64,000 nt of DNA from Puccinia triticina (lineage: Eukaryota; Basidiomycota; Pucciniomycetes; Pucciniales; Pucciniaceae), in assembly GCF_026914185.1 (NCBI RefSeq), contig NC_070561.1, forward strand, positions 6,262,001 to 6,326,000, given 5' to 3'. The notes under the pieces were generated by a model that was not told where the DNA came from, ran no database searches, and saw nothing but the letters and a program-made list of their open reading frames with translations. Shown one piece after another: positions 38,493-60,644 of the stretch. Numbering within the stretch: the stretch's first letter is position 1; every line of letters starts with the position of its first letter. The translations under genes were made by a program, and so were the position numbers.

Positions 38493-38543
38493 CACCAGGG
38501 AAGAAAGTGTGGCACTCTTTAGAGAGTGACCAACCATAATTTT
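38493..38543 (+). repeat. Left TIR of the giant CACTA element
   Basis: It matches the reverse complement of 60382-60432 at 47 of 51 positions and contains an inner palindrome CACTCT(T/C)TAGAGAGTG, a possible transposase-binding site. Confidence 0.9.
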
Positions 38544-39024
38544 ATGTGTCGAGTGGTCCAATGTGACTGATGTGCCAGCTGCAACATAGGTCCAACCTTC
38601 CCTGCAACCCACTGTGTATTGCAGACAACAGCATGGTGTTGTTGTTGTTAACTCATTCTGTATGTTTATGACTCAGCTTCCCTTGCATTCCATTTGAACC
38701 TATTTGGGCGTATGCTTTTTGGGATGACTGGTTCTTGTTGTGGAATTCCTGCTCCCCACATCAATCTAGTCTGAGCCACAATCTAGGAGACGTGTCCTGG
38801 GGCAACCTTGCTTCCATCCAGGGTGTCGATCAGTTCTGAATGGACAGAGGCACAGAATAAATCACAACCTGTGACACACTATGGTAAATTCCATGCCACA
38901 AACCTGGGAAAATGTGATGCGAGATGCAAAGGCGCCATTGCGGAAGAAGGGGAGTTCTATGAAAAGTTCCTGTTACTGCTTGAAAGTCCTGTGCACTTCT
39001 TGATTTCTTTCAGGCAGATCACTG

Positions 39025-40123
39025 CACCAGGAAAAAAAAATAGTCACTTGATGGCAAGTGACATGATGCAGCTTTGGTTTCTGCTCCAGAGCTACTCCAG
39101 CGCTGCTCCAAGTCTGCTCCACCAGCACTTGTAGAGCTTGCAGGAATGCACCAGAGCACTCAATGTGGCACAGTCAGCTGATCCTAATTTTTTCCCAGGA
39201 ATAGCTGATGCTCATCATAAGCTGAGCAGTAGGCATTGACTGAGCCTGGGCCAAAGCTGAGCATTGGCTGAGCCTGGGCCACAGCTGAGCATTGGATATT
39301 CTAAGCCTGAAAAAAATCCAAGTGTCAGCTGGACCAAGAATATTCCAAATCTGAGCATCAGCTAAGCCAACAATGGTCCAAAGCTGAGCGTACAAAGCTG
39401 AGCATTGGCTGAGCCAAGGCTGTTCCAAAGCTGAGTATCAGATTTTTTGAGACTATTCAAAAGATCAATATCACCTGAGCCAAGGCTGTTCCACAGCTGA
39501 GCATCAGCTGAGCCAAGGCTGGTCCACAGCTGAGCATCAGCTGAGCCAAGGCTGGTCCACAGCTGAGCATCAGCTGAGCCAAGGCTGGTCCACAGCTGAG
39601 CATCAGCTGAGCCAAGGCTGGTCCACAGCTGAGCATCAGCTGAGCCAAGGCTGGTCCACAGCTGAGCATCAGCTGTTACAGGAGTGGTCAGACTCAGAAT
39701 CTGAGCATTTGCTGGGCCAAGATTTATCCAAATCTGAAAATCAGCTTAGCCAATACTGGTCTAAAGCTGAGCATTGGCTGGGCCAATGATAGTCCTAATC
39801 TGAGTCTGAGCTGAGCCATGACTGGAATAAAGCTGAAAATAAGCTGGGCCAGGACTGGTTCTTATCTGGGCAACAAAGCTGAGCATGAGCTGGGCACCAA
39901 AGCTGAGCATAAGCTGGGAGCTAAAGCTGAGTATCAGCTGACCAGAAATGGGGATCAGTGGTGCCCTGCAAAAACTGAGGATCTCCTGTGGAAATTCTTA
40001 AACTGGTTAGATGGTGGGTAGATGGTGGGTAGATGATGGGTAGATGGTGGGTACATGGTGGGTAGCCCGCTGGAGCTGGCATGATGTCACTTGTCATCAA
40101 GTGACTACTTTTTTTTCCTGGTG
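39025..40123. mobile_element. CACTA-like non-autonomous element 2, 1.10 kb (TSD CTG)
   Basis: Ends CACCAGGAAAAAAAA and TTTTTTTTCCTGGTG with TIRs of about 40 bp, flanked by CTG on both sides (39022-39024, 40124-40126). It contains CAGCTGAGCATCAGCT repeats. Same family as 17452-19383 and 62118-63355. Confidence 0.87.
39477..39673. repeat. 33-bp subterminal tandem repeat, about 6 units
   Basis: The unit contains GAGCCAAGGCTGGTCCACAG then CTGAGCATCAGCT. The last part is a near-palindrome found throughout this element family. The repetitive open frame here is a by-product. Confidence 0.85.
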
Positions 40124-40789
40124 CTGCTTTGTTTCTGATTGCAAGTTGAATTTGGCCCAACGGCGGGGTCCGCCAGGCTGCAGAAAGATGTCACTGGGAC
40201 TCCTTGGTTCAGCCCATATAACCCTTGAATGAGTGGGGGCCTCTGCCCCCCAAAAATTCCCCTTGGCTTTCTTTCTTCGAAACCACAAGGGTACAAATTG
40301 CCGCTATTTTGCATGGGCAGCTTGTTTCACTGCACTCAATCAGGGGAGCAGCGGATGGCCCTGTCAGGCTGTGTGTCAGGTGGAGCAGTTGGGATGCAGC
40401 TAAATGGCAGCAGCGTAATGATATCCTACAACTTCTGGATGATCGAATAGCAGCCAATGTTATGTGATGAGCAATCATCCATTGCATGAGGGTGGGCCCC
40501 GCTGCATAGCTCGAAGTTTCCCACTCTGTAGTCACTCACAGAACACCTGTCTCCAGAACGATTGTGTCATGGTTGAATTGGATTCGCTCGCACCTGGGCA
40601 ATGCTGACCATTAGCCCAGCTGTGAGTGAGATTGGTGATGATGTTTCCTTGTTTGTAATGTTTGGTATTGCAGCATGTTGGTAACTTGTGGACATGTGTG
40701 TAATGATTTTCTGCGTTCCGGTCCAAACAGATGGCTAACATACCAAGCTGACCAGCCAAACATTGCCACCTGAACAACACGCTTTGTGG
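40124..40789. other. Leader region of the SNF2 gene
   Basis: It may hold the promoter and one or more 5' exons of the SNF2 gene. I could not resolve any exon with confidence. Confidence 0.4.
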
Positions 40790-43130
40790 ATGTATCAATC
40801 ACAACACTCCTGGATGCTGACACCAAATTTGTTGAAAATCTACAGTAAGCAAATCAGTGTAAACCAAACTGACCTGTTAGTCCTGGCAGAAGTGACCTCC
40901 AATCCTTCCAAAGCAATGAGGAGTACATTTTGCCTTGGACAATTCATAATTCCTATTTCGTCTCCGACACACTTACCCGGCAGCACCATCCCACAGGTGG
41001 GCTTTCTGCAAAGAGGTCGCCGGAGAGTCCACGTGTATCAAGCACCACAGAAGCAAATCGGAGATCTCAGCGATACTGCAAGCGAACATCTGGGTCCTTT
41101 AATAGGGCCAGTATCAACTTGTTCAACTCCGGTGACCGATTGCGAGATCTCCCCCACCGATCCCGATGTCATCAAGATAAGAGCATTTGTAGTGACCCTT
41201 CCTGGCGCCCAGCTTGAGCTCCGCGGTTGCGTTTTTAGTTGTTACAAGAATGTAGCCCTTGTGCAGTCGGCTTTCAAAGCTGCGCGGGTGGAGCTAACAA
41301 CAATCTGGAACTACAATCCCAGTGTTTTCTTCGAAATTCCACACTATGCTGATAACAGTGCGCAAGATGGCGGTATTGCTAAAGAGGATTGGCTTGCACC
41401 CGCTTTTCGGCTCTGTCGTACCAAGCTAAAACCGCACCAGCTGACTGCCCTCCGATTCCTCAGAGAAAACGAGTCCTCCCACCAGAACCCGTCGTTGGTT
41501 TGGAATCACCCAAGTAACGCCTGGCTTCGGAGCTTTACCTCTCGCGCCGGGATTGAAACGACGGCCAAATTGAAGGTGTCAAGGTCCCGGGGATCTATAC
41601 TTGCGGACAATATGGGTTTGGGCAAGACATTGACGACTCTGGCTCATATCTTGTCAACTAGTGACTCAGCTGTTCAATTTCACTGGGCCGATTGGATACA
41701 GCGATCCGCAGAGACTCTGGTCATATGCCCGCTCGCAACCTTGTCTAATTGGGAGGCCAAAATCAGGCTCCACTTTGAAGAGAACGCCATCACCTACCAG
41801 GTCTTCCATGGAGCGTCTCGGAAACAGTGCAGTAGGACGGACCTACAGTCAGCCCTGGTGGTTTTGACCACATATGAGATGATTGCCGGGAGCGCCGATG
41901 GGTCACAGGAAGATCAGCTGATGGTCGAATTGCTTAATTTGTGCTGGTTTAGAGTTGTCATCGACGAAGCCCAGTGAGTCAATTACTCCTTCCGCTTGTC
42001 AGCGCGTGCAATGCTAAAATTTATTGTTAGTCTGATGAAGAATCCAGATGCAAACCAAACCCGGAACATTCAGCAACTCCAGTCCGAGTTTGTACTTTGC
42101 TTAACAGGCACACCAGTCCAAAATCTTCTGAAAGACCTGCAGAGTTTAATTACGATGTTGAGGATTGCCCTGTGGGATGAAGATCTGATTTGGAAGCGAT
42201 GCTTGATTCCGCGAATGAATCTCGGGGCGGCAGAAGCAATCAGGAGTCTGACATCATTAATGCAGACGGTCTGCTTGAGACGAACCAAAGAGGTTATTTT
42301 GAACCTGCCTGATAAGGTCGAGCATGCTGTCATTGTCAGGAACAGTCCACAATGGGAAGAAGTCTCAAGGGAGTTGCATCAAACTTTTGTCGCAACTTTT
42401 GGAAGATTACGGTCATCTGGCAAGCAGTGGGACCACACCAAGTTTTTTCAACAGCTGACGATGCTGAGACAGTTTTGCAACCATCCTTTATTTGCAAGAA
42501 GCGAGCTGCTTGTTCAACCAACCTGGCGATGGGAGGATTCAGGCAAGATTCTCCACCTGATCAGTAGTCTGGAAAACTTCTTGAGTGGAGTCCAAGGGAT
42601 TAAACGACCAAAGGCTGTTGTATTTTCAAGTTTTGTTGGGTACTTGGAAATGTAAGCAGGGGTTTTTTCTCCAAAGGCAATGAATGAATTTTGCTGATTG
42701 CCTCCAACTACAGCATTGGACGCGCTCTGGAAGACAATCAGATGGTTTTCACACGGCTCACAGGGGATCTCACTGCGAGCAAGCGTGATGACAACCTCAG
42801 ACGGTTTAGGGCCGATAACGATTGTAATGTATTATTGGGATCCCTGCAAGCAGCAGGAGTGGGTATTGACTTGCGATGCGCTCAGAACGTGTATCTCATG
42901 GTCAGTGTTTTTTCATACATTGCATTGAGCCTAAGGCTCACACAGACTGATATTGCCCTTCAATCTTCAAGGAACCAAGTTGGAACCCAGCAAGTGAAAA
43001 CCAAGCAATTGATAGACTTTATCGTTTGGGACAAAAACATCAGGTGTGCGTGTACCGATACTACATGGATGGGAGCTTGGAAACAAACATTTTTCAAGTG
43101 CAGAGGCGGAAAGGGGAGTTGACTTTGTAA
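40790..43130 (+). CDS. SNF2-family DNA-dependent ATPase/helicase (transposon cargo)
   Basis: Exons 40790-41973, 42031-42651, 42714-42900 and 42972-43130 (introns 57, 62 and 71 nt) join to 716 residues with no internal stop. All SNF2 motifs are present in order: I ILADNMGLGKT (about 270-280), Ia LVICPLATLSNWE, II DEAH (about 392, completed by splicing CA|T), III CLTGTPVQN (about 417-425), V VLLGSLQAAGVGIDL (about 640-654) and VI WNPASENQAIDRLYRLGQ (about 667-684), followed by YRYYMDGSLE. The order and wording resemble Rad5/Rad16-type enzymes, but no RING finger is visible. The first 265 residues have no recognised domain. Such enzymes move or strip proteins on DNA in the nucleus. The start could lie further upstream in an unseen exon. 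Integrity contrasts with the broken transposase nearby. Confidence 0.85.
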
Positions 43131-43296
43131 GCGCACAATTCCACCAGTGTGTTGATGTTCTGGGTGCTGATAAATGTCGAGACTGGACTACAGGCTAAGT
43201 GTACCGGCTGCAGGAAACAAGCAGTATGAGTGTGCACAGCTGCTAATGACAAACCTCATGGAATGAAGACCTCACACTCACTGGGGAGTTGTAGGT
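43131..43296. other. Convergent 3' spacer
   Basis: Short gap between the stop of the SNF2 gene and that of the minus-strand gene. No terminator signal can be assigned. Confidence 0.4.
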
Positions 43297-44403
43297 TTAG
43301 TGCGGGATGGTCAGATTTGGCCACTCTGCAGCTGGTTTTTCGTCAAGGAGCGCTCTTTGGGATTGAGTTAGTGTAGATAAGTATTGTGGGTCATAGCAGT
43401 TGACAGGTAGACTGCAGACAATGTGCTTGATGCCGATAGTCGGAATTGAATCCAAGGGTTTTCGCCGGCACTCCAATATGTATCCTTGCGCAAAGACCCG
43501 GCCCTTGGTGTTAATTTTCTTCTGAGCATAAATCACATCAACTTGTTGAGCAAAGCGAGTGAACTCGTCCGACCGCCAAGCCAAAGGCAGCTTGACCAGA
43601 GAACGCGGAGGTGTAGTTTTGGTGTCAGAGGTTGCTTTGATGTTGTCAAACAAGGTTTTGAGAGCAGGATCGACTGGAAGCTTGGAGAGTGTTTCCTGGC
43701 GATGTTGTTGGATCTGTGGTGGTGTGGTAATGAGTGATCAGGATGCAGGAAAGAACAATTACTAAGGATGCCAATTCCTGACCTGCATTCGTATCTTTGT
43801 CTTTGATTCGGACTTCTGCTTTTTTGATTGTCTCACAGCGGAAAATCGACCCAAACGAAGTCCTTCCTGCCTGCCAATGAACCAGCGGTGGAGCAGGCCG
43901 AGTACAACGGATTTGGAATCCGCCTCCGCGGGATTAATGAAAAATTGACTGAACGCTCCTTCCTTGTACGCATTCGACCAGTGTTTGAACACAAAAGCAG
44001 CGAAAATTTGATTCCAGTGCGCGTCCCACGGGTGATCCCAGGCAAAGGTCTGACCTGGGAAATGAGAGCGGGACAGGTCTTGCTGAAACAGAGCTCTGAA
44101 TATTGGGTCAACTGTTTGAGATTTGACTAGGAGCGCAGCCTCTGGAATTGGATCTATTGCGTGAACAAGGATGGAGTCCGGCAGGTTTGAGCCGACGTGG
44201 AAGCTGTGTGGCAGGGGACGTATCTTCCACTCGTCCGAAGGAGGTTTCTTCTTGGAAGGAACCAAGTTAAGCAGAGTCCTGAGGAAGGCTGACACGCTGC
44301 GAGAGCAGGGCGAGTTGGGATTTGGAAGCAACATCGAATAGATTGCGTTGATCTTGGCGACTGTGCCTGGTGGTTTCCCATCTCGAAAATTGGCGTTAGA
44401 CAT
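43297..44403 (-). CDS. Hypothetical protein, two exons (giant CACTA cargo)
   Basis: Exon 1 (44403-43783) and exon 2 (43713-43297) join across a 69-nt intron (GTCAGG...CACAG) to 345 residues starting at a clear ATG (MSNANFRDGK). I do not recognise it. Visible features are a basic patch after residue 50 (PSKKKPPSDEWKIR), an aromatic-rich stretch (FAWDHPWDAHWNQIFAAFVFKHW) around 130-150, and a second basic patch before the intron (RQSKKQKSESKTK). No signal peptide or membrane helix. Two 36-bp palindromes lie 200-380 bp upstream of its start. Confidence 0.6.
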
Positions 44404-44604
44404 GGGGATTGTGGAAGGGGAAACAGAGGCGATGGGTGGCTTAGGGGGATTGTAAGCTAGAGACAGCCAGCTTAAGTATTGCCTTACACATCAATCGGGT
44501 TTGGAGGCACAAAGGGGTGGTGTTGCCTGCTTGGCCTCAAAGGGGATTTTCTGACAGGAAGGGGGGGGTCCGACGCCTGGTGTTTGGTCCGAGGGCACCT
44601 CTAT

Positions 44605-44640
44605 GTCCACCCTATTGTACGGCCGAACGGTTGGGTGGAC
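44605..44640. promoter_or_regulatory. 36-bp palindrome, copy 1
   Basis: GTCCACCCTATTGTACGG followed by a nearly complementary half ending GGGTGGAC. About 200 bp upstream of the 44403 start. Probable protein-binding dyad; function inferred. Confidence 0.7.
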
Positions 44641-44749
44641 AAGTGATGTCACGGCGTGGTGGAGCTGTGACATCAGCTGAAAAACTGGCCATGCGGTCCA
44701 GAGTGCCTTTCACCAACCAGTCAGCTGGTCCTCCGTGTGTCGGAACTTT

Positions 44750-44785
44750 GTCCACCCTAACGTACGCCCGTACGGTACGGTGGAC
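44750..44785. promoter_or_regulatory. 36-bp palindrome, copy 2
   Basis: GTCCACCCTAACGTACGC and the partner half ending CGGTGGAC. About 350 bp upstream of the 44403 start and 110 bp from copy 1. Confidence 0.7.
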
Positions 44786-45212
44786 ATGGGCTTCTCGCTG
44801 TTCAGTGATGGAGCACTGAAGATTGTCTTGCTTGTTTGCCAAAAAGACTCCAAATTTACAGAACTTAGAAGGTAAGCTCCATCTTGCGACCGACCGCGCC
44901 GCGCCCTTCTTTGCAGTCAGCCTCCCATGATTCTCTCTCGCGCAGGGGAAGTCTGAGACGGTGCCTCCACCTTGGAGCATAGCGCCAACTCCACATCCAA
45001 GGCGCATTCTAAAGGGCCTCAGAGCATTGGGCAACCCAGGCTACCGCCACAACCATTGTTTTGACTGGCTGGGATTTACGAGCTGCGCGCCCAACGATTT
45101 CAGACCCTGTTGGATATTCCGAGTCATGCGAAGTGCGCCGCCATGTTGCGCAATAGCAGCACAACTACTGCCAGCGTGCTGGGGGTCATTAGTTCCGGTT
45201 CCATGATGTGAA
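44786..45212. other. Spacer with no supported gene
   Basis: A minus-strand open frame at 45304-45041 overlaps the end of the next gene but cannot be joined to it by usable splice sites. I leave it uncalled. Confidence 0.4.
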
Positions 45213-45878
45213 TTAAGAAACTGTCTCATTTCCCGACGCCGGAAGAACCCACCCCAATGCAGATACACAATGACAGGCAATACATAGTGAACCTCTGCTG
45301 TCACACATCCTCAAGAACTCACAAAATTCGACAGGAGACGGCTCTTGCGCATGAGGTACCTTTGGTGGTGACGTTGTAATTGGTCCTGTACGAAGAAATC
45401 AAAGAGAGGTAAACGTTGAATGGAAGTAGGTGCCGTTGATCTCATTACAACAAGGGCTCTCTGACCTGTGCAGATCACATTTAAGAATTCAGGAGCTCCC
45501 TGATTTAGCCGCGGTTCCTTCAATAGCTCCACATTCGCTAAAGTTTATTGGACCTGGGAGCAGCCATTGGCAAAAGATCTTGAGAATTTCCATGACATGA
45601 GGGATGAGTGAGGACACATGGCACTCACTCTGGCCTTGACGACAACAAATAGCATTCCAAGTTGCGTGGACATTTGGAACAGCCCTGTGTGGGATCTTCA
45701 TGTCAATGGCATCGGCAAACAACTTGCCTTGAAACCCATAGGCCACATTGCGGTTGGTTGTTTGATTGGTGTTGCTGTCAGATTTGTTGACCACACGCTG
45801 CATTTCGGTGTCAACAAGGATCTGACTTTCTTTCAGCCAGGTGAGTTGGGCGGAAGTGAAGGTAGCGTTGTTCGGCAT
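45213..45878 (-). CDS. Hypothetical protein, three exons (giant CACTA cargo)
   Basis: Exons 45878-45629, 45537-45466 and 45385-45213 (introns 91 and 80 nt; donors GTGAGT and GTCAGA, acceptors TTTAG and GTACAG) join in frame to 164 residues starting MPNNATFTSAQLTWLKESQ. Upstream, an in-frame block ending CPWA could be spliced on through a GTTTGT donor, but it lacks an ATG. The third exon gives a Cys-rich end (EFCEFLRMCDSRG, CIACHC). No family recognised. The model rests on splice phase alone, so confidence is modest. Confidence 0.42.
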
Positions 45879-46492
45879 CGTGCGGGTTTCTGTGGGTGGC
45901 TATGATGATGCTTCTTGACGGTTGATGTAACCCGAGTGCGGTGAGGCTGTGACTGAGGTGTTAGGCAGATGAAAGACAAACCTGCCCAGGGGCAAAAGAG
46001 GTGAAATATGAACAGGAGCGTTCCTGGGGTCCACCCCTCTTTGGCTTTCAGTGGCGTGTCTGGTCCAATCTCGGTAATCTGATGTCGAAGCCGACCGAGG
46101 ATTGAACTACGGCTTTGCTGGCGGTTAGAATTGGGTGCGGAACGTTTCAAGAAGGATTAACTGTGCTTGTCTTCTTGGCCAACGAGAACAAGTGCAGTCT
46201 TTGGAATGCATGTTGATCTCTGGTTCATTCGGTACACCGTAATTAAAGCCGAGCTGCACTGCTTGAGGGAAAGATGTGACACAGATTGTATATATGACAA
46301 TGGCAGCGTGTACAGCCAATCCAACTCCTCTCAAGTACTTTCAAGAAGTCCACTGTTTTAGATTGAGTCGTGCGTCCTCCAGGGGCAGTGAATGTACATC
46401 CCCAGTTGGCAGGCCGCGCCCTCCCTGCTTCCTTTTCCAGATTACTCTGACTCAGACACAACCTTCTCCGCCAGCAAAACGTACAACAGAAC
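45879..46492. other. Divergent intergenic region
   Basis: It lies between the starts of the minus-strand hypothetical gene and the plus-strand transposase and may hold both promoters. No 36-bp palindrome is present. Confidence 0.4.
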
Positions 46493-49400
46493 ATGGTCCA
46501 ACGGCCACTTCATGTCTGTCACTGTGAATCCTATGGTTGCAATCTGCAGCAACATGAAGAAGAAGGCAGAGGCGTGGTTGCAGGGAGAGTGTTGTCTAAG
46601 CGTACTTTTCAAAAGCATCAGGGGAAGATAGACGTTGAAAGGTCACGACACAAGGCAACTGAATCTGAAACCATTCCACAACCGTCAACCAGTAATGCTG
46701 TCAGTGGAATTGATGATACTTACTTCTTAAACAAGAATGCTGCTGACGATATCCAGTCTCAGCAGAGTCTTGCAATGGCGGACCCGTCGGGCTCGTCAGA
46801 AATTGCGCGCACCCCTACAACGCAGGTCTTTCTGGAAGAATCATTTTGCAAGCAGGTGATGACTCAGTTGGCGTTGTCGATGTTTTCAAACAAACTCAGT
46901 AAAGCTGGTGCCGTGGATTTCCTCAAGGCTGCGCGGGCAAATGTTCACCTTCTTGGGAAGATCTGGAGCATGAAGAATTCCACCAAAATAGACCCAATCC
47001 CCATAGTGGAGCAGATCCCGCAGACTCCAGAGGCGGTCTTCCATTGCCTCGGCTTGAATCCAAACTTGACAACGCAGGTTTGTTGCAAGAAATGTTTTGC
47101 GCTTTACTCGATTGAAGATTACAACCGTGACAGTTGTTGCCGATGCGCCCAGCCTTTCCTCTCGGCTCGCCAAGGCTACTGCAAGTGGGCTAAATCCCAG
47201 AACATTAGTCCAACATGCGATGAACCACTCTTCAAGTTCAACAAGAATCGGAAAGCGGTTCCAGTTCAAACATTTACCTATGTGTCTCTCAAGTCTTGGT
47301 TAAAAAACCGTCTCCTGGAACGTCCATTTGAAAATTTGCTAGATTCAAGCCTCACTGCTAACGATTGGAATGATGACCAAGATATGGAGGATGTTTGGCA
47401 CGGGAGTGTTTGGCGTGAATTCCCAAATTCTGACGACGGTTCGGGAGTGTATACACAATGTTCGGGGAATCTGGTCTTCAGCCTGTATCTCGACTGGTTC
47501 AGCCCCGAAGGAAGCTCAAATCTTGGAAAGCACACATCTGTAGGGGAAATCACGCTTGTTTGTCTCAATCTGCCGCCAACAAATTGATATAAGCCAGAAA
47601 ACATTTTTCTATTTGGCATCATTCCGGGTCCGAAGGAACCAAGGCTAGAGGAGATAAATCATGTATTGCGGCCCTTGGTTGACGAGCTGAAAGAGTTGTG
47701 GAGGGGAGTGTCCTTTGACTCCACAAGTATGCACCCGACGGGCAGGAAGATCCGAGTAGCTATTTTTCCGCTCATTGGGGACTTACCAGCGTTGCGCAAG
47801 ACTGCGGGATTTGGGAGTCACGCTGCCACTTTGTTCTGTTCCTTCTGCCTCCTCAGCAAGGATTGCGTAGAAGAGACAAATCCGCTGAAATTTCCGCGTC
47901 GGACGGATGAATTACATCTGCAACGTGCATCTGAGTGGCTCCAACTCACCAATTTCACCGAGCAAAAAGAAGTTCTTGAAAGCACACGGCGTACGATGGA
48001 GCATTCTCAATGAGCTTCCGTATTGGCGACCGGTTCAACACTGCTCAATTGAAGTGATGCACGCCCTGATCCTGGGTGACCTTAAAGACCACAGCATGCG
48101 TTTCTTGGATCTGGCCTCAGCGGGAGCCCTGCTCAAGAAGACGCAGGGGCAGGACGAGCAGTGGCAGAATGCCCAATCATATGGCGAGCCTCCCTTCGCA
48201 GATCATACCCACCGTGTCCGCAATCCAAGGATGAAACGTAAGCGGGCAGACCCCGTTGATGACACTTCAGCCGCCGACCGACCTAAGAAAAAGAACCCGA
48301 CAAAGAGCCAGCCTGGGTGCGCCTTCCCGCAGTGCTATTGCTGAAACTCAATCCAATTCAGACGCTTCATCGACTTCAACACATTCATATGCGCTGCGTA
48401 TGAGGAAGAAGAACCTATACAACTCGTACGCTGCGGACGAGGAAGCTGAGACTGAAGATGATTGCCAAAGTGATTACACTATTCAAGGTGCCCAAGAGAG
48501 ATCCAGCGCCCGACACTTCCGAGATGAAGATACAGAAGCTCCTGGTTTGTCCGCAGAGGAACTTGATGTTTTCCGACGAACCATTCTACACACGGTCTTG
48601 CCCTCTTGGATTGACAGATTGCCGCGCAATTTAGGAGCAGCCAACCATGGCTCCTTGAAGGCGGCTGAGTGGTTAATACTATACAAGGTGTACTATACCA
48701 TTGCTCTGATTCCGCTGTGGGTCAAAGGACTCCGGGATGCTGCCACGGAAGAGAGCAGGAGGCGAATTTCATTACTGCTAGAATCAACCTCCACGCTCTC
48801 TCAAATCACGCACTTTTTGACTCTCCCAAAGATTAAGTTGAAGGATCTGAGTGAACTCGATGGTTTGATATTAAAGTACAGACAATGTTTGCAGAGGGGG
48901 TGGCCTGGAGAAACCAGCACGCCAAACTTGCATCTCACACAACATTTCAGCGAAGTAATCCGTCAATTTGGTCCGCCTTGATCAACGGCAGCTTGGGCAC
49001 AAGAAAGGGTCAAAGGGATGTTACAAAGGTTACCCACAAACCACCACCTCGGTCAGTATCTGCTCTTTGCTCATCTGCGTGAGTTGACTTGGGAATAGGA
49101 TGGTTGCTGATTGGTTGTTGACGTGACAGACCAAATACCCAAGACTCTCATTACCAAATGGCACATCAACTCAAACCTTGCTTCTGCCCTTAATGACCCA
49201 ACGTTCCCCGTTTTGTCAGGGGGAGATGATTCAGATACGAAGGACAAGGTCACTTTCACACTTGATCAGCCTTTGTTCCAGAAGTGGCAGCGGGCAGTGG
49301 TGGGAAACAGAACTTCCAGGGGCAGGCGGGGATTGGCTCAGTCGGATCTGCATTTGAACCCTGCAGTCGAACGCGTCCAAAGTGTACTACTCAACAGGAA

Positions 49401-49848
49401 ATCCTTCACTTGCAAGCAGCAGCACCGCGGCAACTGCTTGGTCGAGTTTGTCCTAGGGAAGAGTCAACGCTTCGGAGAGACGGAGATTATTTTCCGGTCA
49501 AACCAAACACCAAACAAAACCTGGATGGTCATCAATCCGTTTGATGAGCTACGAAGAGATGAGGATCCTTACGGCGATTACCCGGACCTAAACTGTCGGT
49601 TGGTGAAGACCAAACATGACAGCCCAGTGGTGATAGACAGCGAGCATGTCATTGGGCATGTTGCCATTATGCAACACGGAGCTGGGACCTTTGGACTGCC
49701 TGGTGAAACAATCAGTGCTGTTGGATTAGCTACTGCGGTCAGTTTGTTCAGCTACAACTCAGTCTGTTTTCGTGTGTTTGTTCTGAGGGGCACTTTTTGG
49801 TCACGCAATGCGGCAGGGTTGGGAGGGACTAGCGGAGAACTGATTTGA
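46493..49848 (+). pseudogene. Tnp2-type CACTA transposase, decayed
   Basis: Start MVQRPLHVCHCESYGC has the N-terminal Cys cluster of this family. A Cys-rich knuckle follows (VCCKKCFALYS, DSCCRCAQPF), then the hallmark NLVFSLYLDWFSPEG. At 47585-47587 a TGA replaces the expected Arg before YKPENIFLFGIIPGPKEP. The core continues (LRPLVDELKELW, FGSHAATLFCSFCLL). An extra A in the run at 47963-47967 shifts the frame before HGVRWSILNELPYW and EVMHALILGDLKDH. Another frame change falls in the linker near 48300. A second TGA at 48979-48981 interrupts FGPP/STAAWAQERVKG. A clean 78-nt intron (49052-49129) leads to the C-terminal domain (NKTWMVINPF, DSEHVIGHVAI). Tnp2 (PF02992, family recalled) catalyses CACTA transposition. 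This copy should be inactive. Confidence 0.85.
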
Positions 49849-50193
49849 GGGATCTCTGAAAGGGTGTGTGCTGTGCCTTGGCCGCCGGCAAGCGTGGGGT
49901 GGGGAACAAAGGAGCAACACACATTCAACCAACTCTTGAGGTATACCCACATAATCTATTCCCAAGATCCCTTTATGTTCGAAGTCAGAGGCATCTCAGT
50001 CCAAATTGTGTCGGATTTGTAGATTTTTCATCTGTTGTGACTCGGCTGTCTTATCATTTCAACACCCTATCCCTAGAAACTAGCAGCAATTTTATCCAGC
50101 GTCACTCAATAGGAGGATTCTTTGCGCCCCATCCATAACCAGATATCGTACTCCCAAGCTCCCTCACGTTCCCTTTAGTGAGACCAGACGGTC
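49849..50193. other. Intergenic spacer
   Basis: Gap between the transposase end and the next gene. It is probably the promoter of the 50194 gene. No palindrome. Confidence 0.4.
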
Positions 50194-51886
50194 ATGAATA
50201 GCGAAAGGGCCCCCCCAGGTGTACCAGCGGTGGACACAGATGATAGTCCCCCGATGAGAGATCCGCCAGATGGGTGGATTTCCTCGCTTGTCGATAAGCT
50301 CGTTCCCCAATTTCAGGCCAATGGATCACCCGGCGGAGGAGATGGGGCAATGAATACTGACAATCAAGGCAAGTCACACACGATGCGCACATTGAAAGAA
50401 GGATGGTATACTGACAACCCTCCTGGCTCTGTAGGTGTCCCTCCGGCTGAACAAATGAGCCCTGAGATCCCCGACAAATCACACCTGGACCCAAAGTTTT
50501 TGGTCTCGCAGGCGAGACAAGCCAGACAACAAGCAGACCATGCGGACGGTCAGAGGCGATTGAACCGACGCGCCAAAGGAATTGCGCAAAAGGGATCGCT
50601 GGCAGAGCACTACAACCAGTACTCTAGGAAGATACAAGGCTTTGTCAAATTCTTCCTTGGGAATCCGGAAAAGCCGCATGATTATCCCTCCACTCCGACT
50701 GAACGTGAGCTCCAGGACCTATACTGGATCGAGAAGAGAAGTGCCACCATCATCACTGAACTCGACCGGGTACGAGCAGCTCTTGCTGACAAGACGCCTG
50801 CCAAGATTGACTACTATGTGTCTATTGCTGAGAAAGAAATTTGCAAAATTATGCCCCAACCACCGTTCACCCCAGCCGTTTCGAAGGGCCCTGGGAGAGG
50901 CTGTAAGCCCGTCAACATCCAAACAAAGGCTGATGTAGAGAGCGCTCTGGCTTTGTCGGGAATATCACGGGTCACCTTCCAGTGGGAAACTGTGGGAGAT
51001 GAAAGCTCTGCTTGGAACTTGACAATCACGGAGGTCCTGGCTTTGAAGGCGGTCGGATGGATTCGACGAACGACCCCGGTTACTGACGAGCAGGCTGGTC
51101 AAGCTCCCGCCATCATTCGCCGATGGCTCAAGACCAAATCCCGAGAGATACACGAATTTCAAAAGATGGACGTTGCAACTTACGACAAGATGAAGGAAGA
51201 GAAAGCCACAAAAGGGCAGTACCAACAATGGCGCAAAAGGGTAGGTTCCATCCTTGTTGATCATTGCACCAAGAGGTACTGCCAAATTACTCACCCGCGG
51301 TTGATTGACGTGGCAGATCAAGGACAACCGATGCAAAATAATCAACAAAACGCTTGACAAAAACATTCCATTGGCCAGCATTGTCGAACGAAAAGACTGC
51401 TCCTCCGACATTGAGGATGGTGGGAAAGGCACTGCCCCTGTTTCCATGATACCGGACTGGCGTAGCAACCATCTGACAAATGTCCTACACTGCCTCAACA
51501 AGATGTTCATTGCGCGCGCCAAGCATCCGAAGACCATTGCCGCCAACCAACTCCTTTACACACGTTCCAGACGTGGCTTCAAACACACCAAGGGCATTGT
51601 TGGCGTTCCGCGTGGGTTGCCGCTTGATTGCTACAGCCAGGCTTATTGGAGTCAACTCAGCTCTTATGAGCAAGGTACCGTCTCAAAGGTCCCTGCCATA
51701 AATCTCGAAACTATTGCCGCAAACATGCAGAAACTCTGTCACCGTCACAACGGCAATCACAGATCTCGCAGTGCACCTTCAGCCACAAATGCCACAACCA
51801 GACGAAATTCAGGGCCGAGTGGGTCAAGCGGTCAAGGTGCTTCTTCCGCACCAGTACCAGGGGGGTCAATGGAAGTAGATCGTTGA
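50194..51886 (+). CDS. Hypothetical 538-residue protein (giant CACTA cargo)
   Basis: Exon 1 (50194-51240) and exon 2 (51317-51886) join across a 76-nt intron (GTAGGT...GGCAG) in phase to 538 residues with no stop. The start is ATG (MNSERAPPGVPAVDTDD). I do not recognise the family. Features: an acidic, Pro-rich N-terminus, a basic helix-forming stretch near 105-135 (RQARQQADHADGQRRLNRR), alternating charged helices in the middle, a conserved-looking RAKHPKTIAANQLLY and RGLPLDCYSQAYW region in exon 2, and a low-complexity Ser/Gly tail. Its position beside Tnp2 suggests it might be the second CACTA protein (TnpA-like, binding subterminal repeats). That is inference only. Confidence 0.65.
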
Positions 51887-52251
51887 GACACTCTTACCCA
51901 GTTGCCTTAAATAGTGTGTGTGCTCAACAGTCACAGATGCGTGAAGATTCTGCCACTCCTCGACACCATGTATTTGTATTCAAAATTTGTGTCCCCCTTG
52001 TGTTCAAGACGGAAATGTTGTTAGCCTGTGAAATTCCATGGCCTGTGATAGATACATGTGGATTGAGGACCTTAACAATACTCTGTTCCATTCGACCAGA
52101 TCGCCATCTGGGACATCCGGTGGCAGTCATGATGACTCATAGACGATCCTCCCAAGAGGATTCCACCTGCCAGCCCTCAAAAGGTGGGTGCAGATGGCGC
52201 TTTCACGGGCAAACCAAGCAGCTGTCTTCAGCGAGGACCATGATTGCTGAT

Positions 52252-52287
52252 GTTCACCGTAACGTACGGCCGTACGTTTGGGTGGAC
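52252..52287. promoter_or_regulatory. 36-bp palindrome, copy 3
   Basis: GTTCACCGTAACGTACGG and its near-complement ending GGGTGGAC. The centre ACGTACGGCCGTACGT is perfect. Confidence 0.7.
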
Positions 52288-52530
52288 ATCAGGAAGCCCC
52301 GCAATCCGCGCCGCAGCCTACGCGGGGCCCATTGAGAAGGCCTTGCTGCGAGCCGATCCAGAAGCCCGACTCATGGCAGGCAAGAGTTGATGACTGGAAG
52401 CCAGTTGAGGACCCTCCCACACATGTCCTCATGACCACCATTGTACCCACTGTGTTGTGGCCTGAATGAGGTATGCACTGTTGTGCAATTGGGCTTGCAC
52501 AGAGTTGAAAACTGTGCAAGCACCAGATTT

Positions 52531-52566
52531 GTCCACCCTAACGTACGGCCGTACGTTAGGGTGGAC
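52531..52566. promoter_or_regulatory. 36-bp palindrome, copy 4 (perfect)
   Basis: GTCCACCCTAACGTACGG followed by its exact reverse complement, so all 36 bases are symmetric. This is the best guess at the ancestral site. Confidence 0.8.
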
Positions 52567-52820
52567 AACAGCCTGCAGTGTTGTCACCAGAATCAACATC
52601 AATCCTCAGCTTGACTTCACCGCCCCAAGGTATCCCCCAAACGCCTCGTGGCGTGAGATCAATGTAGTGCAGATTCTTGCGCGGACCGGCCACCTCTCAC
52701 TCGGCCTCACACTAGCGCTTCTGCGTGGTGTTTGAAATCATCAAGACTTTCACCATATCCAGGCGTGGCAACCCAAGGCAGGTGAGCCTAGATCCAAAAT
52801 GCAACCCTGGGGGCCCTCAT

Positions 52821-52856
52821 GTCCACCTTAACGTACGGCCGTACGTTGCGGTGGAC
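52821..52856. promoter_or_regulatory. 36-bp palindrome, copy 5
   Basis: GTCCACCTTAACGTACGG plus a half ending GCGGTGGAC, about 515 bp upstream of the ATG at 53372. Confidence 0.75.
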
Positions 52857-53371
52857 ATGCAGGCCCATGGGTTTAGCAATGACGGTCACGTCATTACATG
52901 AACTACAACCAGATAATCACTCTTCATGTGAATTTCTCCCCTCCGCAGCAGACAATCGAGCATGTACACTTCTACTGCCCATCACGACCAATAACTTTAG
53001 CTTCCCGCCATCAGCATAGTTTTGAGCTCCCAGATTGCTGAAGCACAGAAATCTGGGAGTTTGGACGATTCCATCAGCCACACGTCAGCTTTCACATCTT
53101 GAAGTGCTCGCCTGAGCAGATTTGGTCATCTGCCAGTGGTCTACCTGAGCGCCAAATGAAGATACAAGGATGCAACAACGGCGATGTTGAAACCGTAATA
53201 TGTACAAAGGCCATGTGAACACCCCCTCACAAAGGCCCAATATTTCTCCTGTCACATAAAAACCGACCCATTTCAACTCTGGGTCGTTTGTCCCACCCTC
53301 CACCCCCAATCGAGAACATCTGATTTCCCAAATCCCCTCATCCGTCCCCTCCACCACTTTCTTGCTGAACC

Positions 53372-55876
53372 ATGGAAACTGACAGTAATCCTCCCAGTTC
53401 GCCCAAACCTTATGACGAGTCATCAAAATCATCGGCTGGTACCCCACCTCCTAGTAAGAGCAACAAGCGGCCTTATAACAACCTTGAACGGAAGCTGACC
53501 CAAAAGTTCAGGTCAACAGGAACTCCAGCAGAACCTTTCGCAAGGGCCACTTCCTGCACCATCGTTTGCAGAGTTTGCCTTCCAGAAATCCTCCTCAGTG
53601 CCGCCGGCCTCCTTGCGTCCTACAGAAGCCGTCCTTCCTACTGAAATACAAGAAATCAGCGCAGAGGAGTTTGGACGTTCGATTGAAGCTGCCTACCGAT
53701 CAGCGGAAGAGATCCTGGCTCTCAAACTTCCTCGTAGTTGCAAAGTTGTGGCCGAAGAGCTAGCGTTGTCGCTCACCAAGAGCAAACGAAGTAAGCATCT
53801 TCAGTGAACCCATCCAGAATCCACAGAATAACACGCATCTCGCACAACTGACGCAGTAGCCATTCTGAGCAGAGTGGGAAGAATCCGGGGCTCTGCCAGA
53901 CGAGGAGGACATCAAAATCTCTCCCTCATCCAACATTGTCGCTTCAACATCCAAGCAGGTCACACTACCCCGCAAAAGTCGCAGACGCAAACGATCCGAC
54001 AAAGGCAAAGGCCTTAAGCCCGTGGATATCCTTGTCAAGTCAAAATCCAACACCAACACTGATGCAGATCGGAGCCAGCCTCCTGCCGCAGGAACAACTC
54101 TAGGCAGTATGCAGGCGAGTCAAGCGCCAAGTGACGCTTCACCTTCAACTGCTAACGCAGCAACAAGGCCACTGGCACACGACGCCACCACCACCGGACC
54201 AACGGAAGGCTGGGGTTCACCTCTTGTTGATCCGTCACCTGCACGCTGGCCCAACGTTGATGAGTCCGGTCCATCCGACATGGCGCCGCAGCCGAATTTG
54301 CCAGACAAAGAGCTTGCACTGCAACCACACGGCTCCTCTAGTTCGAACCTTGCTCCGATACCTGAAGAAGACAAACCAGCCGGACCCAATCCCACCCCTC
54401 TCTTCACTCCGGATGATTCCGACAGCAATGCTCCTGGCACAGCTCCCAGTCAAGCAACATCGGGAACAGCTCACTCCAACCCCTCTGGGACACAGGAGGC
54501 CAATCACTGCCCAGGCCGCCTTTTGCTGACAATTATCAAATCAGACGATATACGACGGCAAGTGGTCAGCATCAACCAACATGTCGACGGAACCAAACCA
54601 AACTGGGAAAAATACCAGACAACTTGGAACTCTCGGTTTTCCCTTCTTCACAACTGTGCAAGGGCCGCCAACAATGCACCTCCGGAGCCTCCAACATACG
54701 ATTTCCAAAGAACATCGTGTTCCTATGCATCCTGGATGCAGACTATCAGCTCCCACGGTGAGATGCCATTTCTCTCCATCTCCATCCATCCCTCCGGCAG
54801 CGTGAAAGCACTGAGACCAATTATCTTTCCCTTCAGCCAACCAATTCCTATCCTACTCTACCAACAAGCAATGGTATTGCCCCGATTCTCTTGATTTTCC
54901 GCTTCTTACCAGCTTTGCAAACAAGGAAAAAACGCTAGCACCGGGACAGTTCATCGACCCCATCAATAAGACCCGACATCCTGAGTCTACCATTGTTTGT
55001 TTCTTGTATTGGTTGCTTCACCCTCCTCAACATGCGCGCACCGAGTGGGCGAGGTTGGTTGCTGCCTCTGTAGAGCTTATGGCCGACAACATTTTCAAGC
55101 CAAGCCAAGTCAACTCCAGTTGTGAAACCAATCACATCACTCGCAGGGTTGAAGCTCTCTCTTATCTTGATGCCGTCAAAAATTCGTCATCAAGCTTTGA
55201 TCTGCCGCAAGAACGTCAGGACTCTTCCTCCCAACCCGCCGAGCGTTTGCACTCGGTAGATGTTCTACACGAATTCTGCAAGATCATTCTTGATGTCTTG
55301 ATGGCCTATATAATCTTCCAAACACATTCTCTGAGCGACGCACCTTTAACTCAGGCCAAAAAGAAGAGAATCACCCGTGCCAATCAAATCCCCTCACCCA
55401 CATCAACACACACTGTCTCCAACGTCGAGAAAAACTCATCAGAATTGTCCAAGATTTCAGAAGATTCTGCTCAAAGTCTTCAACGATACCAACAAAAGCA
55501 AAACTTTCAGCCCCTTGTTTACTTTGTCCTTGGTGGGGTTCGCGGGCTTTTCATCACCTTGAGGGACCATCAAACCGCAGGAGTTTCAGGATGCATGTCT
55601 ATGATCCAAGCAATGTCCATTATTAAACAGCACTCCACCACACCGCACACTCCAGACAAGCCAATATGGAAGAACCTCTCAGCATACCTTGTTTGGATCT
55701 TCACCCCTGCCTTTCAGTCATCCGGGAGTATCTGCCCACTGGCCAGCATGCAAGTCCCAACCAAGATGGAGCTGGCTCACGCCATCACGAATGACTTTCT
55801 GAACCAGTGGAGGACCTGGAACCCAAGCTCCCCATTCCTTCTCCCGTACACATCTCGCGAAATTACACCACCATGA
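53372..55876 (+). CDS. Hypothetical protein of about 780 residues, one apparent frameshift (giant CACTA cargo)
   Basis: Exon A (53372-53790), exon B (53873-54757) and exon C (54837-55876) are joined by introns of 82 and 79 nt (GTAAGC...GAGCAG, GTGAGA...TTCAG) with matching phases. Exon A opens with ATG (METDSNPPSSPKPYDESS) but changes frame between about 53510 and 53540. The downstream frame (LSQGPLPAPSF) needs a one-base shift there, since no intron fits. It may be a real lesion or a sequencing error. Exon B has basic PRKSRRRKRSDKGKG, then a long acidic, Ser/Thr/Pro-rich disordered region. Exon C is a folded-looking domain of about 345 residues (FLYWLLHPPQHARTEWARL, LVYFVLGGVRGLFI). No family recognised. 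Confidence 0.5.
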
Positions 55877-56723: not shown

Positions 56724-57537
56724 TCACAAAATGTCAGTACCCGACAAAATCAACTCAGTACACATGTTGTTGACGGGGGACAGGAAGATACTGACTAAGT
56801 TCATTTCCTGATCTACAACTTCAATCCACCCCACGCAACCAACCGCGACATTCATGTGGACCTTAACGACGTAGACTGTCCCAAACGCATGGGTATTCTC
56901 GAATTTGTGAGCAAGGGGAAAGTAGCCTCGGTGGACTTGCCAAGATGAGCGCTCTACAAGAATTACAGGGTGACTAGGATCAGGGTAAACAACAAGTTGG
57001 CCGGAAAAGAAGACTTGGGTGCACATGTTGTAGAGTATTGGAGGAATCGTTGACGCTGAAGACTTTAGAACAACTTCGTACTCTTGGTAGGCCAACAATG
57101 GTTTATCTGGAGGGATCTGAAAGGAAGTGATACAAGTTATAATTTGGATTGCATCTCCTACTACTCGGATGTTTCTTGGATTGGTATTAGAAAGATGAAT
57201 GTTACCAGCAACCTCAATCATTTTTTTGAAATGAGCGGACACTAATTTCCGAATGGCTCTACCTCTCCTCGTCGAGCTTAAAAGGAAGCAGTTGAAAACA
57301 GATACCTAGAACGAGTTCCCCCACAAGACAACACAGACCCATGGGAGTTGTTGGTACCAGTGGGGCCTTTGATCGTCCATGGGCATCAAAGGGAAATGCA
57401 CTTTTGAGGGGGTCTACGTAACTCAGAACTGTGTTTGCTTTTATTGCATGTGGTTGGATAAGTGCAGGAGTCCAGTCGTCTCCACTTCCCTTTGAGTCAG
57501 GGTGTGCCAATACTGTCCAAATACTTGCCTTCACCAT
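56724..57537 (-). CDS. Hypothetical 233-residue protein, three exons (giant CACTA cargo)
   Basis: Exons 57537-57306, 57241-57165 and 57116-56724 (introns 64 and 48 nt; GTATCT...ATTAG, GTAGTA...TTCAG) join in phase to 233 residues starting MVKASIWTVLAHPDSKGSG. I do not recognise it. The C-terminal two thirds are rich in beta-type alternation (FFSGQLVVYPDPSHPVILV, TVYVVKVHMNVAVGCVGWI), which could be an OB-like or jelly-roll fold. That is speculative. A 36-bp palindrome lies 171 bp upstream of its ATG. Confidence 0.55.
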
Positions 57538-57707
57538 GGATTTACCCACTATTGACCTGGATTTGTGCGGGATTTGGATTGCCGTGAATCTCTACTCTCC
57601 CCCTTGCCTTTCAAATTTCAACTCTTTGCTTGAACAAGTCGGACATCAGTTTTCAGCATGCAGGTGTAGTTTGGGCTAATGATGTCAGGTCTGGTTTGAA
57701 GAGGCAT

Positions 57708-57743
57708 GTCCACCTTAACGTACGGCCGTTCATTAGGGTGGAC
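57708..57743. promoter_or_regulatory. 36-bp palindrome, copy 6
   Basis: GTCCACCTTAACGTACGG with a diverged right half (CCGTTCATTAGGGTGGAC), 171 bp upstream of the start at 57537. Confidence 0.7.
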
Positions 57744-60381
57744 ATCCCCGGATGTGACTTAATGTGCCTATCTCCTGTGTCTGGCTTCCTTTGTCATACA
57801 TGTTCTGATGGAATGCCGCAAAATTTGTGAAGGCATTCATTTCTTCCATAATCTGCCAGGGAACTTCCAACGGGCAATTCAGTGCCGTTCATCACTATGT
57901 GCTCAGAACAGCACGGTTCTACACTGTCATCTTTTCATGCCCTTCCACCTTTAACCACATAAACAAATTGCCATCTTGCAACCTCTGAACTTGCACTCTA
58001 CGAAAGGAACTTGTTGTCCTGGAGCACAAGATACCAAAAGTATGATGTCAGGTGGTAGAAAGGAAAATCTGCCGTGCAACACAAAGCCCAGGTTGACAGA
58101 AAACAAAGCCCAGGATGATGGCCTATGTGCTCATTTCCTGAGGGGCATATTGGATCGATAGGTGAGTGAGCATCCCCCTGCCTCCTGCACACCTCACATC
58201 CCTGTCGTGACTGTTTTCATCATTCTGAAGCGCCACAATTACAAGAAAGTTCAATCACCCTTTTTGGGACTTCTTTGACTGTTTATTAACTGAATAAGCA
58301 GAGTAGGGGTCCAGGAGCACGCTATGAAAATTTCTAGCTGGGACCACACACTGCCCCATGACATTCAGTAGACCGTCATGGAACAGGAGTCTGCCATACC
58401 TTCAGCCGTGAGTTAAATTCTCACCCCCCTGATACCCAATAAATGCTCTCTCAGGTGTGCCACAGGTTTTGCACAACGTTTTCAACACCACCTTAAAGCG
58501 GGTAGTCTTGATTTAGTGCACCATACAATACCCACTAATGTGCCTCACTTCAGGGGTGCCATTGTTTGTGCCACTGCCACCAATTTTGACTTCAGGCATA
58601 GTATGTCTGGGAGTAGACACTGGTCCCAGGTGGTCCCAAAGAGGGAACATATCTGAGATTGGCAATTTGTTTTGCCCATGAGACTGAAAGCATGTTGGGA
58701 TGGTTGTGAGTATTCTGTGAAAGGCATGCAGGTCTGGCCTCCCTTTTTCATGCTGGATTTCAAGCAGGAAAACACACATGAGTGAAACATCGCACAAATT
58801 AGCTGTTCATGTGATGTGCAAGAGACTTTGTTGTAGAATTCAGCTTACCCTGTGGTGGCAGTTTACTCGTCTAGAGGGACAGCTGCAGGGAGCATTACAC
58901 CACAGGTCTGGGCGAACACTCCTAGATGATGTTGGGAATTTACATGCTGTGACTCTGAGATAATTGGTCAAGCAGGCCAAGCTGATAGAAAGTGCGGTCT
59001 CAAGGTCAAATTTCCATGCATTTGATACCCATTCTAAATTCCGGAAATAAACCACTTTCTTTAAACTGGCATAACTCTGTTGGGTGTTCAAGCACACACC
59101 GCTTCTCGGGCACCATCCTGCATGAAGGGATGTGCCTCTTTGTGCCCAATTGGCAACATCATTTTTCACCATTGTGCTTCATCCAAAATTAGTAAATCTG
59201 TGCCAGGTGCCTGTGTAGTGTGAGACGTGAGTTACATGATTGCGCCTGCTGAGTCTGTCAGATTTCAGGAGCAACTTCTTCCCCTGAGTTTGACTTCATC
59301 GTTGAAAAATGTTTCTGTGCCCTTAGAGCAATTCATTTCATCCACTCTGGAACAAGGAGTAAACCGGGGAAAGATTCAACCTACAACAGAGGCACAAGAA
59401 GCCTTGTACTTGATCCCATGAAATGTGGTTCAAAAGGACAACAATTAGCACATAACCCAATGCTCAAGGACATTCCATGTGCCTTCAAGGCAGAACAAGT
59501 TGGGGAGTTCAGGTGTGCTCATTCCATGCTGCCATCACAAAACAATCATTCTTCCCGCCACTGTAAACCTCCGGGAGTGAAACTTGCAATTTGCTTGGCA
59601 GTGGCAGGAGTATTTATTCTTCATCTGTATTGAAATCTAACCCACTCCATCACAGCAACTCCCACCCAAACAGGGCAGACAGATGGGGAGACAAGTGGAA
59701 CTGGTATCTGGCTGGTCTGGTACAAAATCCGGCCCAAGTTGGAGGTTGATACTCATGCAATTATGGTGGTTAACCTAACCAGCTCAAAATCTAGGGCTTC
59801 CTGGGTGCCAATGAACAGGATTGAAACATGCTACAACGAGTTTGAAGGACTCCTCATGACAATATGTCATTGGTGGACACGTAAGGCCCAAAAAGCTGAA
59901 TTTAGACAAGGAGAATTTCAGTAGAGGAGAGTGTGCAAACATGGTCCAGCTGTGCCACTTATTTGGCAGTGCCTCAGTTCAGCTTGTGCCACTGGTAGTG
60001 TGTCAATGTCATCTTGAAAGAATGAATGCTAACAGGTCTCTCAGTCTGATCCGCCAGGTAGCCTTGACAATTTGTGTGTGAGTCTCTGGGGACCAGAAAT
60101 GGTGTTTATGACTACCAAGTAGGAAACAGGTTCCTTGGGCATTACTAGCTTCAGGAACATAGATTGAGAAAGATGCTCATCTCACGACTCGTCTCCAAAA
60201 TTTCAGCTTGCTTGGGTGTCATTAGGTTGCCAGGGTGAACCAGCAATCCAAAGGGTGAACATTTAAATAGCTGCAGGTGAAGTTACAGATGAGATTGGCT
60301 TGCTCCCAAAACAACAACATCATTGACACATGCATGAGTCACTCATGGAGCCACAGTTGATATACCACAGGGTTCCAGAAG
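57744..60381. other. Right subterminal region of the giant CACTA element
   Basis: About 2.6 kb without a supported gene. Scattered open frames under 110 codons on both strands show no recognised words. Unresolved small exons are possible. Confidence 0.45.
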
Positions 60382-60432
60382 AAAGTCATGGTTGGGCACT
60401 CTCTAGAGAGTGCCACACTTTCTTCCCTGGTG
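60382..60432 (-). repeat. Right TIR of the giant CACTA element
   Basis: Reverse complement of the left TIR with four mismatches in 51, followed by the target duplication TTG. Confidence 0.9.
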
Positions 60433-60644
60433 TTGGTTTGAACAGTAATGAACATTCTGTGAAATTTGCAAGAAATTGAAAAATTTCCACATTTTTCATT
60501 TTTTTATTTTTACTTATTTTTATTTCATAATAATTCTTAGGAACTTATTTTCCACCCCTGTAGCCAATCTCATGACTTAACGGCTGTGGCCTGAGCTTCT
60601 GCATTCAAAAATGTGGTGCCAAAAACATTAGATGACCCACTGTA

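Follow-up and report, generated by a model that had tools for sequence, protein, structure and literature searches.

Does a SNF2 ATPase that lies inside a DNA transposon belong to the element, or does it merely ride there? The question is raised by a stretch of 64,000 nucleotides of the Puccinia triticina genome (assembly GCF_026914185.1, contig NC_070561.1, positions 6,262,001 to 6,326,000; hereafter the window), in which a first-pass annotation had described a 'cargo-bearing' CACTA transposon of 21.9 kb with a SNF2 gene and five further genes. We find that this copy is a decayed, non-autonomous member of an old, recently mobile family of giant CACTA/EnSpm-type elements of rust fungi, and we regard the identity, gene content, mobility and selection of that family, taken jointly, as highly probable. 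The earlier observation is confirmed and exceeded: a whole family of giant CACTA-type elements shares a conserved set of genes. Also new here are two palindromes, one of 38 bp at three internal promoters and one of 20 bp in the terminal inverted repeats (TIRs), a possible oligonucleotide/oligosaccharide-binding (OB) fold in one protein, U4, and the paralogy of two others, U1 and U2 (the genes other than SNF2 and the transposase are called U1 to U5).

Recurrence and mobility of the unit

The genome searched comprises 122.8 Mb in 18 contigs, the window lying on contig C4 (other C-numbers are contigs of the same genome). Genome-wide searches with the proteins of every gene but U5 gave, as lower bounds, at least 110 matches for the transposase, 103 for SNF2, 106 for U2, 150 for U1, 127 for U4 and 115 for U3. 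The 110 transposase matches merged into 109 loci, and when partners were counted solely on the expected side and strand, SNF2 was found at 88 of these, U1 at 102, U2 at 98, U3 at 97 and U4 at 95. All five partners were present in one order and orientation at 71 of the 109 loci; a further 23 loci had four of them (at least four at 94 of 109), 8 had three, 2 had two and 5 had one. In 200 trials of random placement, the mean number of loci with two partners was 0.12, and no locus had three or more. After a second SNF2 search had been merged in (four full search listings combined, places within 3 kb on one strand being merged), SNF2 lay no more than 25 kb upstream, on the same strand, at 94 of the 109 transposase loci. 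Four of the 15 loci lacking it retain a single partner, and in the C9 copy nested insertions have pushed SNF2 pieces past the 25-kb limit. The order of the unit is TIR, SNF2, U1 (minus strand), U5 (minus), transposase, U2, U3, U4 (minus), TIR.

Two pairs of near-identical copies show where the unit ends. The C15 copy (2149729-2171585, 21,857 bp) and the C18 copy were compared at both ends, over 1,368 and 3,170 bp, and are 100% identical there; the match breaks off exactly at the 50-bp TIRs, the flanks are unrelated, and the target-site duplications are AGA and GTT. The interior of the C18 copy is known from search scores alone; for five genes these are the same as in C15, and for U3 almost the same. 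The C7 and C14 copies, each 20,594 bp as judged by their ends, are 99.9% and 99.97% identical over the ends compared (988 and 3,904 bp), and here too the match ends at the TIRs, between unrelated flanks and with different duplications (GTT and a 4-bp CATA). Four copies near to one another, those of the window, C10, C16 and C9, share 96-99% identity within colinear segments; through nested insertions C10, C16 and C9 have come to span 40, 62 and 83 kb respectively, the reading of C9 stopping 4 kb short of its end. The unit moves as one piece and recurs in order about 100 times in this genome.

The very constant gene order might also result from repeated duplication of a host gene cluster along with a neighbouring transposase, the two never forming a transposon unit. 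Such a history is refuted for both near-identical pairs by their exact ends at the TIRs, unrelated flanks and different duplications, and we consider its probability negligible. The TIR-bounded copies and the recurrent gene order bear out the earlier proposal of a CACTA-type mobile element with its own SNF2 ATPase. The first-pass annotation had suggested looking for the same genes between TIRs in the same order, and within this genome they do recur in this way; the contrary outcome that it had named, the genes lying at conserved loci outside transposable elements and never between these TIRs, did not occur in this genome.

Selection and co-divergence

Between the window copy and the C1 subfamily, all seven genes are under purifying selection, with ratios of non-synonymous to synonymous divergence (dN/dS) of 0.16 for SNF2, 0.17 for the transposase, 0.19 for U1, 0.25 for U2, 0.26 for U4, 0.31 for U3 and 0.41 for U5; these values rest on one pair (dS 0.72-0.86), synonymous sites being saturated or nearly so in the comparison with C15. 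At the DNA level, the window and C15 copies align in the genes and in short palindromes only. SNF2 and U1 diverge together: their identities to the window proteins are correlated over 89 linked pairs of copies, which are not independent of one another (Spearman 0.83, from the first 108 of 150 U1 matches), and over the 85 pairs below 80% identity (Spearman 0.80).

One observation weighs against our interpretation and speaks for chance capture, by which host genes would be passengers of the window copy with no role in the element: the four near copies have changed almost neutrally since insertion, with pN/pS ranging from 0.49 for U1 to 1.15 for SNF2 and 2.09 for U4. Single copies simply decay after insertion, and we rejected the near copies as a test of selection because they record this decay. 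Against chance capture stand about 100 colinear copies in several subfamilies, purifying selection on every gene between two subfamilies, co-divergence, and the recurrence of these genes in a lineage that has diverged deeply, so that it is already refuted for this genome and we give it next to no credence. Because the genes are conserved, diverge together and are constrained much like the transposase, we regard them as genes of the element, and the earlier description of them as cargo is not supported.

A second, deeply diverged lineage

A further 58 Transposase_21 loci were found in the genome, with SNF2 upstream on the same strand at 17 and a U1-like gene at 20 of them; by manual count, SNF2, U1 and transposase stand in the same order at the usual spacing at 14 of the 58. 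No upstream same-strand SNF2 was found at 41 loci; at six of these SNF2 lies within 25 kb but is arranged differently. At C3:1666064 and C3:7869387, CACTA-type transposases have an opposite-strand SNF2 about 8-9 kb away.

The one element of the 14 that was read lies at C3:5673863-5691538 (17,676 bp), and is bounded by identical 43-bp TIRs and ACA duplications. Its genes are SNF2, U1, transposase, U2 and U3, of which U2 lies on the other strand, and there is a weak match to U5; a profile search for U4 in it found none. Its SNF2 is 34-42% identical to a lineage-1 homologue, and U1 at the 14 loci is 25-38% identical to that of the window. Since the profiles draw on phmmer hits at E<=1e-5, lineage-2 sequence may be among their members, which makes their E-values optimistic. 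Independent tblastn searches with homologues recovered lineage-2 SNF2 at 2.8e-105 and U2 at 1.1e-14 and 2.5e-9; U1 was found at E=5.5e-14, and the lineage-2 U3 is known from its profile match alone. Since these genes are found in the C3 element, SNF2, U1, transposase, U2 and U3 seem to form a core that predates the split of the two lineages.

Classification and closest known systems

Copies in the window and on C10, C16, C15, C18, C7 and C14, as well as the lineage-2 element on C3, start with CACC and end with GGTG, and thus have the 5'-CAC...GTG-3' ends in terminal inverted repeats of CACTA/EnSpm (CMC) elements; the Tnp2/Transposase_21 domain (PF02992) of that superfamily is likewise present. 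Of the nine insertion sites read, which include that of an element nested in the window copy, eight fit a 3-bp duplication, C14 having 4 bp; the C10 insertion site has a run of four A on either side. CACTA elements end literally in CACTA or CACTG; here the ends read CACCA, and in lineage 2 CACCG. By its ends, duplications and transposase, the family is filed as EnSpm-like.

Around the window element, 51 open reading frames (ORFs) of at least 100 codons were listed, and 20 ORF segments were scanned against Pfam. The 'captain' of Starship elements is a DUF3435 tyrosine recombinase; we rejected a Starship, as there was no DUF3435 match among the 20 segments scanned and the transposase is of the Tnp2 type. 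AcademH and KolobokH were rejected as well, the transposase matching Transposase_21. These two resemble our elements in carrying a helicase gene inside a DNA transposon, but belong to other transposase superfamilies and have DEAD and Helicase_C as their named domains; SNF2_N is counted among domains foreign to transposable elements in the same paper (PMC10799480).

Rust families with CAC..GTG ends have been placed in EnSpm (PMC12730594), and P. triticina is among the named hosts of related families. Three of the rust families, from P. striiformis, carry a TET/JBP dioxygenase (PMC12730594, Kojima 2025); the same paper found no TET-bearing Plavaka in Pucciniomycotina. The likeness to our family lies in the 5'-CAC..GTG-3' ends, the 3-bp duplications, the EnSpm/Plavaka-like transposase and an epigenetic enzyme carried inside the element, the difference in that enzyme: TET/JBP genes are reported, and SNF2 and SWI2 are absent from the main text. 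Some of the consensus elements in its supplement may be the giant families described here. A Tet_JBP search of this genome gave no match, as did its controls, and is hence uninformative. In the red alga Chondrus crispus, EnSpm/CACTA elements of 16-20 kb have four to five ORFs instead of one or two (Kojima et al. 2013, as cited in PMC6431247); these resemble ours in size and number of ORFs, and differ in host, with SNF2 unnamed in the text available. No CACTA/EnSpm element with a SNF2 gene was found in the literature searched, outside which lie Repbase, supplements, most subscription papers and preprints, and no paper found there combined EnSpm, Puccinia and SNF2. The accessible parts of PMC12210899, PMC3579696, PMC3164196 and PMC8444563 hold nothing on SNF2 in transposons.

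Genes of the window copy

Coordinates are collected in the table below. The TIRs and TTG duplications given in the first-pass annotation are present, the TIRs at 51 nt (CACC...GGTG, 92% complementary) in place of 50. The length of 21.9 kb holds for the span, 1,099 bp of which are a later nested insertion. That insertion has no counterpart at the same site in the sister copies on C10, C16 and C9, so that the element proper measures about 20.8 kb.

Table. Features of the giant element in the window (positions count from the first base of the window)
Feature	Position	Strand	Description
Whole element	38493..60432	+	21,940 bp including a 1,099-bp nested insertion; TIRs and TTG duplications, colinear sisters in three other places
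Left TIR	38493..38543	+	begins CACCAGGGAAGAAAG; inner 20-bp palindrome imperfect on the left side
Right TIR	60382..60432	-	
TTG target-site duplication, left	38490..38492		
TTG target-site duplication, right	60433..60435		
Nested element	39025..40123		CACC...GGTG ends, 33-bp tandem repeats, CTG duplications; foreign to the original element
SNF2 ATPase	40916..43266	+	five exons, ~697 aa (amino acids), frame complete, end approximate
U1	43297..44412	-	~345 aa, two exons; paralogue of U2
38-bp palindrome	44604..44641		upstream of U1
38-bp palindrome	44749..44786		upstream of U1
U5	45489..45899	-	short protein; ORF of 136 aa, 164 in the earlier model
Tnp2-type transposase (Transposase_21)	46451..49848	+	frame interrupted in the window copy
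U2	50182..51886	+	~538 aa, two exons; helical (model of homologue)
38-bp palindrome	52251..52288		upstream of U3
38-bp palindrome	52530..52567		upstream of U3; perfect, 38/38
38-bp palindrome	52820..52857		upstream of U3
U3	53499..55876	+	~780 aa, three exons; last 340 aa common to lineage 2
U4	56724..57591	-	~233 aa; residues 25-128 of a 192-residue model OB-fold-like
38-bp palindrome	57707..57744		upstream of U4

Pfam placed SNF2-rel_dom (PF00176) and Helicase_C (PF00271) within 40739-43122, spread over three ORFs, and Transposase_21 in 47588-48013 (E=2.6e-9); the remaining ORFs of the 20 scanned had no match below E 0.05. An exact splice model was built for SNF2 alone. From the ATG its spliced frame runs for about 697 codons without a stop, close to the 716 residues of the earlier, intact-looking model, the last junction having been picked among several by likeness to a homologue. 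The DEAH box is rebuilt across the first intron of 57 nt, and Walker A, DEAH, LTGTP and QAIDRLYRLGQ can all be read in the protein, which thus has both RecA-like halves of the SNF2 superfamily with their motifs. We rejected the stop that follows a DEAQ reading at 41975 as a nonsense codon, since it lies within this intron and C15 is in frame there. A CSFC pair can be seen in the window ORF of the transposase; where the window frame is interrupted, the C10 copy has 881 open codons. The ORFs of the other genes are compatible with the sizes annotated previously for five further multi-exon genes (about 345, 164, 538, 780 and 233 residues). The closest named proteins to the SNF2 exon are from P. 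triticina (99% identity over 86% of the exon); homologues named P. graminis or P. sorghi are single proteins, 7 of 56 matches for SNF2 and 2 of 15 for U2.

U1 and U2 are paralogous: a U2 homologue matches the C15 U1 gene in tblastn (E=4.5e-6), and their profiles cross-match. Three U2 homologues had no Pfam match below E 0.09; PF26792.1 is precomputed for 6 of the 15 U2 protein matches, and our own Pfam scan did not return this family. The AlphaFold model of a U2 homologue is helical, with a well-modelled middle (mean predicted local distance difference test score, pLDDT, 60.6), and matched nothing in the PDB better than E=0.59. Profiles of U1, U3 and U4 matched no PDB sequence below E=0.8, and a Pfam scan of U3, lineage-2 U1 and U2, U5 and a U4 homologue gave nothing below 0.05. 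In the U4 model, residues 25-128 resemble an OB fold, and most of the 50 matches listed are what we take to be OB-fold proteins (PriB, SSB, CST, RPA, HIN); an OB fold in U4 is therefore possible.

Seven genes, among them a superfamily 2 motor, a possible single-stranded-DNA-binding protein and conserved proteins of unknown fold, would also suit a virus-like or self-replicating element that integrates by a CACTA transposase, SNF2, the OB protein and U1-U3 then being genes of replication or assembly. The 20 ORF segments and homologues tested gave no Pfam match to a polymerase, primase, protease or capsid, and no SNF2 relative was confirmed among IMG/VR contigs, where records very near the window genome may be excluded; we judge a virus-like origin very improbable.

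Affinities of the SNF2 protein

The closest PDB relative of the SNF2 homologue P0007 is Rad5 (E=3.1e-49), with which both of its ATPase halves align. Rad5/16-like ATPases have a RING insertion between these halves. About 95 residues separate them in P0007 compared with about 230 in Rad5, so that P0007 seems to lack the RING of Rad5; neither P0007 nor P0009 matched RING, sought at E up to 1, or HIRAN.

These affinities bear on a reading that leaves the element as described and has its Rad5-like SNF2 and OB-fold U4 serve repair or replication, closing the excision gap or acting at the strand-transfer joint. The kinship with Rad5 and the OB folds among the U4 matches favour it; the short region between the halves, the missing RING and HIRAN matches and the failure to find U4 in lineage 2 do not, and we think it unlikely, if by no means negligible.

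Of the 148 merged SNF2 loci found in the genome, 110 are followed within 25 kb, on the same strand, by a CACTA-type transposase, and most of the SNF2-type genes found here appear to belong to transposons and not to the host. A published genome comparison reports PF00176 as enriched 2.56-fold in wheat rusts and files it under transcription factor regulation (PMC5295586); this enrichment probably counts transposon genes.

Palindromes at promoters and ends

The 38-bp palindrome has TGTCCACC arms and a CGNNCG centre, and is present in six copies in the window element. In C15 the gaps upstream of U1, U3 and U4 all carry copies, and in C1 those of U1 and U3, the C1 U4 gap lying almost entirely outside the sequence compared. 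This CpG-containing palindrome is found in the window, C15, C1, C10, C16 and C9 copies and is kept between subfamilies whose remaining non-coding DNA fails to align. A 16-base signature of it was found 33 times in 13 stretches totalling 336,211 bases, and 32 of these sites lie within lineage-1 elements; by our own arithmetic fewer than 0.001 sites would be expected by chance. The remaining site (C3:5693647) lies 2.1 kb outside the lineage-2 element and is perhaps a remnant of a lineage-1 element. Lineage 2 has its own palindrome between U2 and U3, with partial copies upstream of U1, and the TIRs of both lineages contain a 20-bp palindrome (GGCA...TGCC) about 18 bp from the end. These palindromes are candidate binding sites.

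A possible mechanism

The transposase would recognise the CACC end with the adjacent 20-bp palindrome, and then cut and paste. One of the element's proteins, U1, U2 and U3 being candidates, might coordinate expression from the promoters of U1, U3 and U4 by binding the 38-bp palindromes there, and either this protein or the transposase could bring the SNF2 motor to the element. There SNF2 would strip nucleosomes or silencing proteins off the element's DNA, permitting gene expression and letting ends about 20 kb apart pair; U4, if it has an OB fold, could coat single-stranded DNA during cutting and gap repair. VANC of the Arabidopsis VANDAL transposons, an element-encoded anti-silencing protein that acts on the element's non-coding parts, offers a model of how the palindromes might work, though in an unrelated element (PMC10398659).

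The function of SNF2 in the element, be it the opening of silenced chromatin or repair, is one that we infer. To chromatin opening or anti-silencing as its main role we would give nearly, though not quite, an even chance. Somewhat more doubtful is the broader proposal of a transposon class with chromatin remodelling in its core machinery, in which an operator-controlled set of SNF2, U1/U2, U3, U5 and OB-fold U4 would assemble on the element's palindromes, lift its silencing and make 20-kb transposition self-sufficient, the rise of SNF2 in wheat rusts being largely such machinery. Transposable elements of rusts are reported to be under CG methylation (PMC8444563), and a lineage whose chromatin motor has been maintained by selection equal in strength to that on the transposase offers a natural experiment in how elements live with silencing. 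The family also enlarges the small set of multi-gene CACTA elements and offers a concrete candidate operator sequence.

Surroundings of the window copy

The window element is itself enclosed by an inverted-repeat element, whose arms lie at 37170-38232 and 60433-60645. Read on the opposite strand, the right flank (60433-60645) matches 38128-38232 and 37170-37282 (96-98%); the stretch 38230-38492 forms a fold-back of its own. The ends of the nested element show a palindrome-like stretch, as do the TIRs of the giant element, and this nested element may have been mobilised by a related transposase. Elsewhere in the window, 17617-19341 is repetitive, with a SPRASRRAGIHAPARRE-like unit repeated, and is open on both strands for several hundred codons, and an ORF on the minus strand at 822-1667 looks, as judged by eye, WD40-like.

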